Source: Candidatus Kapaibacterium sp.
GTDB lineage: Bacteria; Bacteroidota; Ignavibacteria; Kapaibacteriales; NICIL-2
Assembly: GCA_026003475.1 (NCBI GenBank)
Contig: BPHJ01000001.1
Coordinates: 506,545 to 570,544 of the forward strand
Length of the DNA stretch: 64,000 nt
Direction of reading: 5' to 3'
In this document: positions 44,628-51,116 of the stretch, in pieces
How the letters are laid out: every line of letters begins with the position of its first letter
Position numbering within the stretch: position 1 is the stretch's first letter
The notes under the pieces: model-generated
What the model was told of the DNA's origin: nothing
Seen by the model: only the letters and a program-made list of their open reading frames with translations
Database searches by the model: none
Made by a program: the position numbers and the translations under genes

Positions 44628-44921
44628 TTGAGCGTTCCGAGGATGACCCGATCGCAGCAATCACAGCCAGCACCGAGTACTGTACTGCGCCAGCTTGCAC
44701 CGTTTGCGACGCTTGGTGTCGAGCTTGCGGTGACCGTACTTGCTGGCGGGGCGATCGGATGGTTCCTCGATAATGCATCCGATACGAAGCCACTGTGGAC
44801 GGTTGTCGGCTTTATCGTTGGAGTCGTTGCTGCAATCGTTCAGTTTACGCGTACCGTTCAACGGCTTACCCGAGAGCGTCGTACAACGCAGTTACACCGT
44901 CCGGGTGGAGCCGAGCATTGA
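44628..44921 (+). CDS. AtpI-like small membrane protein of the ATP synthase cluster
   Basis: A 97-residue protein with two membrane segments (about 29-47 and 57-76). It contains the glycine-rich VLAGGAIGWFLDNASDTKPL typical of the AtpI/F0F1-ATPase assembly family, in which paired helices are thought to help c-ring assembly or magnesium supply. I place the start at the TTG at 44628 because GAGG lies four bases before it; the ATG at 44643 has GAGG directly abutting it, too close to act as its ribosome site. It is the first gene of the operon. Confidence 0.75.
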   Translation: MSVPRMTRSQQSQPAPSTVLRQLAPFATLGVELAVTVLAGGAIGWFLDNASDTKPLWTVVGFIVGVVAAIVQFTRTVQRLTRERRTTQLHRPGGAEH

Positions 44922-45277
44922 CGGAACTGTCGCGGACACTGGTGAGCATCGGTGCGGGATTTCTGCTGAGCGCTGCTAATATCCTTGCTGGACTCTTGGT
45001 GGCGCGGCGGGCACAACGGTTACCGGTCAACCGTGCGACCGCAGTGGTTCTGACCGCAATGGCAGTGCGTTTGGTCGTGATGGTGATTGCTATTGGCGCC
45101 ACAGTATCGCTGCTTGAGGTCAACCGGCTTGCGTTTGCGCTCACACTGATGATCTCGTTTTTCGTGATGGTAATTGCGGAAGCTTTTTTTTTGCACGCTC
45201 GTCACGAAAGAGCTAAAACCCCTTTGGTGCGCCGCCGTCGCTATCGGCGAGCACGAATACCGTTTACTGTTTGGTAA
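44918..45277 (+). CDS. Second AtpI-family membrane protein of the ATP synthase cluster
   Basis: A 119-residue hydrophobic protein with about four membrane segments (SIGAGFLLSAANILAGLLVA; AVVLTAMAVRLVVMVIAIGATV; LAFALTLMISFFVMVIAEAF). It resembles the ATP synthase subunit I family that precedes subunit a in Chlorobi-like operons. No ATG fits; the TTG at 44918 overlaps the stop of the preceding gene (TTGA), and this implies coupling. The ending is rich in Arg. Role beyond complex assembly is unknown. Confidence 0.7.
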   Translation: MTELSRTLVSIGAGFLLSAANILAGLLVARRAQRLPVNRATAVVLTAMAVRLVVMVIAIGATVSLLEVNRLAFALTLMISFFVMVIAEAFFLHARHERAKTPLVRRRRYRRARIPFTVW

Positions 45278-45280
45278 GGT

Positions 45281-45468
45281 ATGAGTTCATCTGGTACTGA
45301 CACGCTGCACACACAGTCGCCGCATGCGGAGGAGATTCCTCCGAGCCAGGTTATTCCCCATCTGCTGGAGGAGCTGGGTGATCATCATGAGCTCAATATC
45401 GCGTTCACAACAGCGGATGTCTTGCCCATAATCCTGTACGATGATGGGGGCTGGCACTTCTATCGAAT
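45281..45468 (+). pseudogene. atpB: N-terminal part of ATP synthase subunit a, out of frame with the rest
   Basis: From the ATG at 45281 about 62 residues read like the start of a Chlorobi/Bacteroidota-type subunit a: HHELNIAFTTADVLPIILYD, then DGGWHFYR. After that the frame runs on to a stop at 45565 with unrelated residues, while the frame beginning at 45469 continues as subunit a (HAMEEAGAYRL, then LDLSVTNLVVFQW). The change of frame falls near 45463-45475, in TATCGAATGTGCATGC. It is either a one-base loss, a two-base gain, a sequencing or assembly error, or a natural frameshift. Confidence 0.6.
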
Positions 45469-46275
45469 GTGCATGCAATGGAGGAAGCAGGTGCCTACCG
45501 CTTGGTCAAGGGGCATGTTGTGCGCGCCAGTGATGGTCGAGCCCCAGCGCTGGACCTGTCGGTGACCAATTTGGTGGTGTTTCAATGGATCGGCATGTTG
45601 CTGGTGATCGGGCTGTTCTTTCTCGCTGGCCGTCGCTACCGCCGTGCACCGCTGGCACCACCACGAGGGATTCAGAATGCCCTCGAGGCGGTGGTGGTGT
45701 ACATCCGTGATGAGGTTGTCCGCCCGAACTTGCGCTCCGAACGATTGGTGCGCGCGTTTATGCCGTACTTTGTTGGGTTGTTCTGCTTTATTCTCGTGTT
45801 GAATCTGCTTGGGCTTTTGCCCGGGATGCATACCGCAACAGGTTCGATCGGGACAACCGCAGCACTGGCAATCACGGCGTTTTTGGTCATCAATGGGTTG
45901 GCAATCCGGGAGGTCGGCATCAAGGGGTGGCTCCACCATTTGCTTGGTGGTGCACCGGTGTACTTAGCTCCAATCATGGTGCCCATCGAGATTCTGGGGC
46001 TGTTCACCAAACCGTTTGCACTGACGGTTCGTTTGTTCGCGAACATGTCAGCAGGGCATATCATTCTCCTGTCCCTGGTGGGACTGATCTTCTACTTCCG
46101 CTCGATATTCGTTGCGCCGATGTCTATCGGTTTTTCCATTTTCATCTACTTGCTGGAAACCCTTGTCTGTTTCTTGCAGGCATACATTTTCACGATTTTG
46201 ACAGCCGTGTTCGTTGGATTGGCACTGGGCGACCATGCCGACGACCACCACGGACACGCAGTGAGTGCATCATAA
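45469..46275 (+). CDS. atpB: ATP synthase F0 subunit a (main part)
   Basis: The proton-channel subunit of the ATP synthase. The 268 residues include about six membrane segments. The essential Arg is in KPFALTVRLFANMSAGH near 191, with the C-terminal helix LETLVCFLQAYIFTILTAVF. The block LSVTNLVVFQWIGMLLVIGLF is the first helix. A GTG at 45469 could serve as a start, but family members have an exported N-terminal part that is encoded just upstream in another frame. This is therefore likely only the 3' portion of a broken or misread atpB. Confidence 0.88.
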   Translation: MHAMEEAGAYRLVKGHVVRASDGRAPALDLSVTNLVVFQWIGMLLVIGLFFLAGRRYRRAPLAPPRGIQNALEAVVVYIRDEVVRPNLRSERLVRAFMPYFVGLFCFILVLNLLGLLPGMHTATGSIGTTAALAITAFLVINGLAIREVGIKGWLHHLLGGAPVYLAPIMVPIEILGLFTKPFALTVRLFANMSAGHIILLSLVGLIFYFRSIFVAPMSIGFSIFIYLLETLVCFLQAYIFTILTAVFVGLALGDHADDHHGHAVSAS

Positions 46276-46306: not shown

Positions 46307-46537
46307 ATGGATGGTTACGGTCTTGCATGGCTTGCCGCAGGAATTGGCTGCGGAATCACCGTCTTGGGCGTTGGTAATGGTATCGGGCGGCTTGCTGCCG
46401 CTGCGCTCGAAGCGGGTGCTCGCCAACCAGAAGCTGCTGGTGATGTGCGAACGACGATGATTATCGGTGCTGCCCTGATCGAAGGGGTTGCGCTTTTTGC
46501 TCTGGTCGTCTGCATTTTCCTTGCGCTCAAAGGCTAA
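46307..46537 (+). CDS. atpE: ATP synthase F0 subunit c
   Basis: Ring-forming proteolipid of 76 residues with two helices joined by the polar loop ARQPEA at 38-43. The ion carrier is E59 in ALIEGVALFALV. The polar residues of sodium-type rings are not evident, so protons are the expected ion. It follows atpB by 31 bases. Confidence 0.95.
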   Translation: MDGYGLAWLAAGIGCGITVLGVGNGIGRLAAAALEAGARQPEAAGDVRTTMIIGAALIEGVALFALVVCIFLALKG

Positions 46538-46606: not shown

Positions 46607-47104
46607 ATGGATGGACTTCTGCAGATTAGTCCGGGTCTGATTATCTGGACCCTGGTCAACTTCAGCTTGTACCTGTTTATTCTGGCAAAGTTTGGGTACA
46701 AGCCGCTCCGCAGCGCACTCGAGCAGCGCGAACAAACCATAGCCGATTCGATTCGTTCGGCGGAGCAGGCACGCGCCGAAGCGCAGCGGTTACTTACTGA
46801 AGCTGACGAGCAACGGAAACGTGCTCATGCCGAGATGGTCGAGCTTCTTCGTGATGCACGTCAGCAAGCTGAGCGCATCGTCGCAAAAGCCGCCGAGGAA
46901 GGCGAACGTGTCAAGCAAGAAAAGCTTCAGGAAGCCGAGCGCGAGATCGAACGCTTGGTTGCCGACGCCCGCGCCACTCTCAAGCGCGAAGTTGCAGAAC
47001 TTGCGCTCCAGGTTACGCAAAAACTCCTTGCTCAGCAGCTCGACGGTGAACTTCACCGCCGCGTTGTTGAGCAGTCGCTGGCACAGCTGGAACACACCAA
47101 CTAA
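46607..47104 (+). CDS. atpF: ATP synthase F0 subunit b
   Basis: Peripheral-stalk subunit of 165 residues. One N-terminal membrane helix (about 9-28, IIWTLVNFSLYLFILAKFG) is followed by a long charged coiled coil rich in Glu, Arg, Ala and Gln that reaches F1. The family motif FGYKPLRSALEQRE is present. It follows atpE by 69 bases and precedes atpH by nine. Confidence 0.95.
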   Translation: MDGLLQISPGLIIWTLVNFSLYLFILAKFGYKPLRSALEQREQTIADSIRSAEQARAEAQRLLTEADEQRKRAHAEMVELLRDARQQAERIVAKAAEEGERVKQEKLQEAEREIERLVADARATLKREVAELALQVTQKLLAQQLDGELHRRVVEQSLAQLEHTN

Positions 47105-47113
47105 CCTCCAGCC

Positions 47114-47668
47114 ATGCGTAATACCCGTGTTGCGAAACGGTATGCACAATCGTTGCTCGATGCGGCCATTGAACACGACACACTCGATGCGGTGGTAGCA
47201 TCGGTGAGACTGGTTAGGGCTGCTCTTGCTGAATCGGCGCCCCTCCGTGCGCTGCTTCGCAATCCAGTGATCGCAGCAGAGCGAAAGCAAAGTATCCTTC
47301 GTGCGATTTTTGCTGAGCGGGTCCATCCGCTGGTCGAGGCATTCCTTCACTTGGTTTGTCTCAAAGGCAGGGAAAATTTGCTCGACTTGATCGCCGATGA
47401 ATTCATTGCGCTCTACAACCAGCGTGCGGGGATCGTCGCAGCACGAGCGATCACCGCAGTACCACTGCCGGACGATCTCCGGGCACGTGTCGGGCATGTT
47501 GTTGCCCAACGCTTTGGCGGAACACCGCAGATAACCTACCAGGTGGAACCAGCCCTTCTTGGTGGGCTCGTCATCGAGTGCGGGGATGTCCGTCTGGATG
47601 CCAGCCTTGCTGGCGCATTAGCACGACTGCGCAAACAGCTTCTTTTTCTCAACGGTAAACAAACGTAG
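47114..47668 (+). CDS. atpH: ATP synthase F1 subunit delta
   Basis: The stalk cap joining subunit b to alpha3beta3; 184 residues. N-terminal [18 protein letters not shown], the central [21 protein letters not shown] and the C-terminal [18 protein letters not shown] are the standard delta/OSCP blocks. It lies between atpF and atpA in the normal order. Confidence 0.95.
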
Positions 47669-47679
47669 AGGACCCTATC

Positions 47680-49230
47680 ATGGTCGAAGTTCGTCCCGAG
47701 GAAATATCTGCAATTCTACGAAAGCAGCTTTCCGGCTTTGAACTCGAAGCAGAAATTGAGGAAGTTGGTACTGTCCTCCAAGTCGGCGACGGCGTCGCAC
47801 GCGTCTATGGGCTGACAAAGTGTATGGCCTCGGAATTGCTTGAATTCCCCAACGGTGTGATGGGGATCGCGCTCAACCTCGAAGAAGATAACGTCGGTGT
47901 TGTGCTCTTCGGGGACGACCGTTTGGTCAAAGAAGGTGATACCGTTCGTCGAACGGGGCGTATTGCCTCGGTACCGGTAGGCGAAGCATTGCTCGGGAGG
48001 GTCGTCAATCCCCTTGGCGTTCCGCTTGATGGAAAAGGTCCCATCAATACGCCGCATTCGCTTCCGATCGAACGGAAAGCGATTGGCGTCGTGTATCGCC
48101 AGCCGGTGAAGGAACCGCTTCAGACCGGGATCAAAGCGATTGATGCGCTTATCCCGATCGGTCGCGGCCAGCGGGAGTTGATCATTGGTGATCGCCAGAC
48201 AGGAAAAACCGCTGTTGCCATTGACACCATCATCAATCAGCGCTACACCCATACCGAACAAGCTGCTCGTCGTGGCGTCAAGCCAGTCTATTGCATCTAT
48301 GTTGCAATCGGTCAGAAGGCCTCGACTGTTGCAAACGTGGTTGCAACGCTCGAACACTATGGCGCGCTCGAGTACACCATCGTCGTTGTTGCTAATGCAT
48401 CCGACCCCGCACCACTCCAGTTTATCGCTCCCTATTGTGGTGCTTCGATGGGTGAATACTTCCGCGACAGTGGACGGCATGCGTTGATTGTCTACGACGA
48501 TTTGTCCAAGCAAGCTGCTGCCTATCGCCAGGTGTCGCTTCTGCTGCGCCGTCCACCGGGACGCGAAGCCTATCCGGGGGATGTGTTCTACTTGCATAGC
48601 CGGCTTCTTGAGCGTGCAGCAAAGCTCAGTGATGAATATGGTGGTGGTTCCCTCACGGCGCTGCCAGTCATCGAAACGCAAGCGGGGGACGTGTCGGCAT
48701 ACATTCCGACGAACGTCATCTCGATCACCGACGGGCAGATTTACTTGGAGTCGAACCTGTTCAACGCAGGGATCCGTCCTGCGCTCAATATCGGCATATC
48801 AGTCTCGCGTGTTGGTGGCAATGCGCAGATCAAAGCAATGAAAAAAGTCGCTGGTCCACTGAAGCTGGAACTGGCACAGTATCGAGCATTGGAAGCATTT
48901 GCCAAATTCGGTTCCGACCTGGATAAGGCTACCCAACAACAATTGCGCCGTGGTGCGCGCTTGGTGGAACTGATGAAGCAGAAGCAGTACAGTCCTGTAC
49001 CTGTCGAAAAGCAAGTGGCGCTCATCTACGCAGCAACCAACGGTTTTGTTGATGAGTTGCCTGTCGATGCGCTTGGACGCTTCGAACAAGAGCTCTACGA
49101 ATTCCTCGACAGTGTCCACCCCGATGTGCTCGACGCAATTGCGATGACCAAGGATATTACCTCTGAGATCAAGGAAAAACTCGATGCAGCGCTGCATGCG
49201 TTCGTCGAAAGCTTCCGTCGTACTGTCTGA
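47680..49230 (+). CDS. atpA: ATP synthase F1 subunit alpha
   Basis: Regulatory nucleotide-binding subunit of F1; 516 residues. P-loop GDRQTGKTA at 170-178, the [28 protein letters not shown] stretch near 325-352 (described, not all quoted elsewhere), and the arginine finger in [11 protein letters not shown] near 377 are present. A ribosome site GAGGA is six bases or so before the ATG. It is followed directly by hldD rather than atpG. Confidence 0.97.
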
Positions 49231-50234: not shown

Positions 50235-51116
50235 ATGGCAACACTACGCGATATACGACGGCGAATAATTGCGGTCCGCAACACCTCGCAAATCACATCG
50301 GCAATGCGAATGGTCGCTGCAGCGAAATTGCGGAAAGCGCAGAACGCGATTATCGCAGCGCGACCCTACGCAGCAAAGGTCGCGGAGATTCTTCAGAACT
50401 TAGCCCAAGCAGAGCGGTACAGCTTCGCGCATCCGTTCTTTGAAGAACGCACGGATGTTCGCAATATCTTGCTGATTGTTGTTGCCAGCGACCGAGGCTT
50501 GTGTGGGGCGTTCAATACCAATGTTTTCAAAGCAGCGCAGTACTACATCGAACGGAAGTTCCCTGAAGAGTTCCCGAAAGCGCGCGTTCATATCGTTGCT
50601 GTGGGTAAACGGGTGGTGCAGTACTTTCAACGACGGCATGAACATGTCGTTGTCGCGTTACCGGATGTTTTCGGACGTCTGGAGTTTTCGACAGTTCTCC
50701 GTATTGCACCGATTGTGGGAGATGGATTCATTAGCGGCGAGTACGACCGTGTCTTTATTTTGTTCAACGAATTCCGTTCGATCCTTCGCCAGGAAGTCCG
50801 GCGCAATCAAGTTCTCCCAATCGTAACCCCTCCAGCCCACGAACGCCACGATGCGGGCGATTACATCTACGAGCCGTCGCGGGCGGAAATTCTCGAGGCA
50901 TTGTTGCCGCAATATGTGAACCTGCAGATTTGGTCTGCGTTGCTTGAGTCACACGCTGCAGAACATGCCGCGCGGATGGTGGCAATGGATAACGCGACGA
51001 CGAATGCACGTGATTTGATCTCTTCGCTCCAACTGGAGTACAACAAGGCGCGTCAGGCGGCGATTACGAAAGAAATGCTCGAAATTGTTGGTGGTGCCGA
51101 AGCGTTGCGGGGATAG
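50235..51116 (+). CDS. atpG: ATP synthase F1 subunit gamma
   Basis: Central rotor shaft of the ATP synthase; 293 residues. The N-terminal helix MATLRDIRRRIIAVRNTSQI, the VVASDRGLCGAFN block and the C-terminal helix MDNATTNARDLISSLQLEYNK are all present. Subunits beta and epsilon (atpD, atpC) are not in the window; in Bacteroidota and Chlorobi they are usually a separate pair. Confidence 0.96.
   Translation: MATLRDIRRRIIAVRNTSQITSAMRMVAAAKLRKAQNAIIAARPYAAKVAEILQNLAQAERYSFAHPFFEERTDVRNILLIVVASDRGLCGAFNTNVFKAAQYYIERKFPEEFPKARVHIVAVGKRVVQYFQRRHEHVVVALPDVFGRLEFSTVLRIAPIVGDGFISGEYDRVFILFNEFRSILRQEVRRNQVLPIVTPPAHERHDAGDYIYEPSRAEILEALLPQYVNLQIWSALLESHAAEHAARMVAMDNATTNARDLISSLQLEYNKARQAAITKEMLEIVGGAEALRG

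Follow-up and report, generated by a model that had tools for sequence, protein, structure and literature searches.

A split atpB gene in a Candidatus Kapaibacterium assembly is probably an ordinary F0 subunit a gene that lacks one base in the consensus

The atpB gene in a 64,000-nucleotide stretch of Candidatus Kapaibacterium DNA (hereafter the window) is divided between two overlapping reading frames by the lack of a single base, and we consider it likely that this lack is a consensus or assembly error with an ordinary atpB underneath. This reading is favored because atpB is intact in the congeners and because other one-base frameshifts occur in the same assembly. Specifically, the locus would be an ordinary atpB coding for F0 subunit a, the ATP synthase proton-channel subunit, of roughly 331 aa, and the codon that follows HFY would have lost its wobble base in the assembled consensus. 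The organism itself would probably carry an uninterrupted gene and make a regular subunit a that includes the N-terminal extension common to the order. We thus infer that the base is absent from the sequence rather than from the organism.

The first of the two frames runs from ATG 45281 to a stop codon at 45563-45565 and encodes 94 aa. It reads MSSSGTDTL...LGDHHELNIAFTTADVLPIILYDDGGWHFYR and afterwards MCMQWRKQ..., and it is typical of AtpB as far as HFYR, the arginine codon of which is CGA (45464-45466). From 45445 onward the -1 frame is open; it reads NVHAMEEAGAYRLVKGHVVRASDGRAPALDLSVTNLVVFQ..., carries the continuation NVHAMEEAG...LDLSVTNLVVF... and ends with TAA at 46273-46275. Candidate start codons in this frame are GTG 45469 and ATG 45478, giving products of 268 and 265 aa, respectively. 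The frames overlap by 121 bases (45445-45565), the assembled letters at the junction, without an extra base, being TATCGAATGTG. When A45466 is used in both frames, 62 residues from the first and 269 from the second give a joined protein of 331 aa. The second ORF matches PF00119 with 195 bits against a cut-off of 33.9 (2e-57), covering positions 2-216 of the 217 in the profile, and the PF00119 core sits entirely 3' of the split. The window holds no single open frame for AtpB, which does occupy the position before atpE-F-H-A. The features of the locus are:

44628-44921, plus strand: AtpI/AtpZ-like gene (PF09527) upstream of atpB, intact
45281-45466, plus strand: 5' part of atpB, the N-terminal 62 residues of F0 subunit a, which aligns with intact congener AtpB
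45465-45466, plus strand: site of the one-base lack, CG^AAT (CGnAAC or CGnAAT in relatives, CAAAAC in one), a single-column gap in the window only
45467-45565, plus strand: out-of-frame tail of the first ORF (MCMQWRKQ...WTCR), with no AtpB resemblance
45466-46275, plus strand: 3' part of atpB in the -1 frame with the whole PF00119 core, from the profile match and the congener alignment
46307-46537, plus strand: atpE, intact, 100% identical in five congeners
46607-47104, plus strand: atpF, intact
47114-47668, plus strand: atpH, intact
47680-49230, plus strand: atpA, intact
50235-51116, plus strand: atpG, intact

The first-pass annotation had described an atpB split by a frameshift near HFYR within an otherwise intact operon, and both parts of that description hold: the ORF coordinates and the congener alignment agree on the place, and atpE, F, H, A and G are all full-length when set against relatives. 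The letters of the window are those of the assembly throughout, the latter being a single contig of 2,159,245 bases that is 95.3% complete. No second atpB copy able to substitute was found in the genome, and no same-species atpB copies were found in viral contigs. In regards to the neighboring genes, a small gene at 44918-45277, between atpI/Z and atpB, has no Pfam or NCBIfam match and is kept in the congeners at only 37-46% identity; an AtpI-like membrane protein is its probable product. Between atpA and atpG lies a gene for ADP-glyceromanno-heptose 6-epimerase (TIGR02197, 49233-50225), as it also does in those congeners whose loci extend that far (L031, L032, L033 and L035). Two matches to AtpC (epsilon, PF02823) are located far from this operon, at C1:2075919-2076155 and C1:2141789-2142025 of the same genome.

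Comparison with congeners (G001-G005, which include Candidatus Kapaibacterium SKYG14, JANWWF010000002.1, and Candidatus Kapabacteria KatS3mg040, BPHK01000001.1, the latter being G005) shows that atpB is one ORF of 329-333 aa in all five genomes, with the N-terminal part in frame. The congener proteins share the operon position and the N-terminal extension with the window and are 84-89% identical to the joined AtpB. The difference is that the congeners have a single frame and the window alone lacks one base after HFY. In the six-way DNA alignment this appears as a gap of a single base that only the window has, between 45465 and 45466 after TATCG, and no further gap breaks the frame in the part compared. 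The base lacking is the third (wobble) one of the CGn codon that follows HFY and precedes AAT, and by homology the lesion is placed within a few bases of 45465/45466. Two other readings of the site were ruled out by this alignment. GTG 45469 is not the ancestral start, as it might have been had relatives lacked the N-terminal part, since every congener has that part in frame. The G5 run at 45446-45450 is not the indel site, since WHFYR downstream of it remains in the first frame and shows no gap in the alignment.

Selection on the gene appears normal on both sides of the split. Values of pN/pS against the congeners are ~0.10 over 40 conserved N-terminal codons and 0.10-0.15 for the rest, which matches the values observed among the intact congener genes. 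Both halves are thus under normal purifying selection, indicating that the lesion is either an error or very recent. The window atpB is not a decaying gene, and the lesion is absent from the organism or very young.

We surveyed one-base frameshifts elsewhere by running tblastn in both directions between 600 kb of the assembly and the entire G005 genome and inspecting the candidates. Visual inspection discarded most of the 13 raw candidates as repeats, antisense ORFs or edges of genes. About four one-base frameshifts were left over 482 kb of coding DNA that could be compared, a density corresponding to some 18 per genome. Those left are atpB (-1), pyruvate kinase (+1), a WD40-like gene (-1) and a very long repeat protein (+1), the latter two being members of repetitive families that carry less weight in the count. 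The pyruvate kinase gene, which is conserved and single-copy, has one extra base near its C-terminus (C1:1517240; about 17240 in L234); across the same 3' region none of the congeners has a break (in G002 a contig end removes the 5' part). A similar case is found in G005, also a single-contig assembly, where ruvB has a one-base insertion at C1:1566807 that is not observed in the window's genome or in G001-G004. At a rate of some 18 such genes per genome, atpB could be among them without any special cause. Indels that break genes into fragments have been described as a weakness of long-read assemblies (PMC12007338), and the isolated one-base frameshifts in conserved genes of a contiguous assembly seen here resemble them. 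The likeness is incomplete in that the site is not a long homopolymer, and the window assembly is taken to be long-read from its single contig. Also speaking against an error are the absence of any homopolymer of at least 4 at the site, where the nearest run is the G5 upstream of HFYR, the status of atpB as the only frameshift detected within the 64-kb window, and a split at nearly the same point in another genome, G010, by a 16-base deletion that is unlike a base-calling error. Of the options raised by the first-pass annotation, sequence error is nevertheless favored, with five of five congeners intact and pyruvate kinase and others also frameshifted.

The G010 split (L261, contig 176; same order, another family) emerged from a survey of the order, where AtpB is present in 117 of 123 genomes. 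Only two splits, those of the window and G010, occur among about 115 full-length loci, a count that excludes partial loci at contig edges. The G010 lesion is larger than that of the window, with 16 bases deleted between TGG repeats as opposed to one base; WHFY is lost with it, and the reading frame is interrupted no more than five codons from the window site. As in the window, this severs the N-terminal extension from the core near the same point, and in both cases the PF00119 core is complete 3' of the split. The sister species G019 and G026 have an intact atpB, and the 16-base deletion could also be an assembly artefact. The chance of a second random lesion falling that close is about 3%, or about 12% when only the N-terminal part is open to lesions, figures to be read in light of the coincidence having been noticed after the fact. 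An order-wide AtpB in which the N-terminal extension is separable from the channel core, such that lesions at WHFYR recur because subunit a remains functional as the core alone, translated from an internal start, would account for both splits, and we regard this idea as improbable.

If one base had really been deleted not long ago, whether from the organism or from the strain that was assembled, what remained would be a core-only subunit a of 268 or 265 aa made from GTG 45469 or ATG 45478, with the extension either lost or present as a separate 94-aa peptide. The complete PF00119 domain 3' of the split, the location of both start codons directly after it and the independent G010 split are congruent with such a re-start. 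So is the occurrence of shorter forms in other families of the phylum, where the alignment of AtpB mostly began only at about residue 90 and open frames of 268-295 aa are numerous. However, the extension is kept in all congeners and is as constrained as the core, and there is no Shine-Dalgarno-like stretch 5' of either start codon, although Bacteroidota often lack this sequence. The stop of the first frame also lies ~95 bases beyond the re-start, which is far for coupled re-initiation, and the other one-base indels in the assembly, including that in pyruvate kinase, offer a simpler cause. A recent lesion with re-start is therefore unlikely but still to be reckoned with, whereas the re-start as an ancestral feature falls with the congener N-termini. 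Far less probable is a programmed -1 (or +2) ribosomal frameshift, an option also raised from the sequence at first. The overlap of the frames and the normal protein obtained by joining them fit this option, but the overlap contains no X XXY YYZ slippery heptamer, in or out of frame, and the folding of the 94 bases downstream is not stronger than that of shuffled sequences (z = +1.57), giving no sign of a stimulating structure. A shift is also unneeded in all five congeners and in about 113 of the 115 full-length loci of the order, and homology fixes the junction at CG^AAT, where a tandem slip is impossible. No account of programmed frameshifting in ATP synthase genes was found in a literature search. 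Programmed frameshifting was thus rejected, for want of a heptamer, a structure or conservation.

The split atpB is not a new kind of gene; it is most likely an error and otherwise a very recent single-base mutation. Automatic annotation would label this atpB as truncated or as a pseudogene, a label to be treated with caution as the ATP synthase of the organism is very likely normal. Were the lesion real, it would offer a natural experiment on the dispensability of the AtpB N-terminal extension in this lineage.
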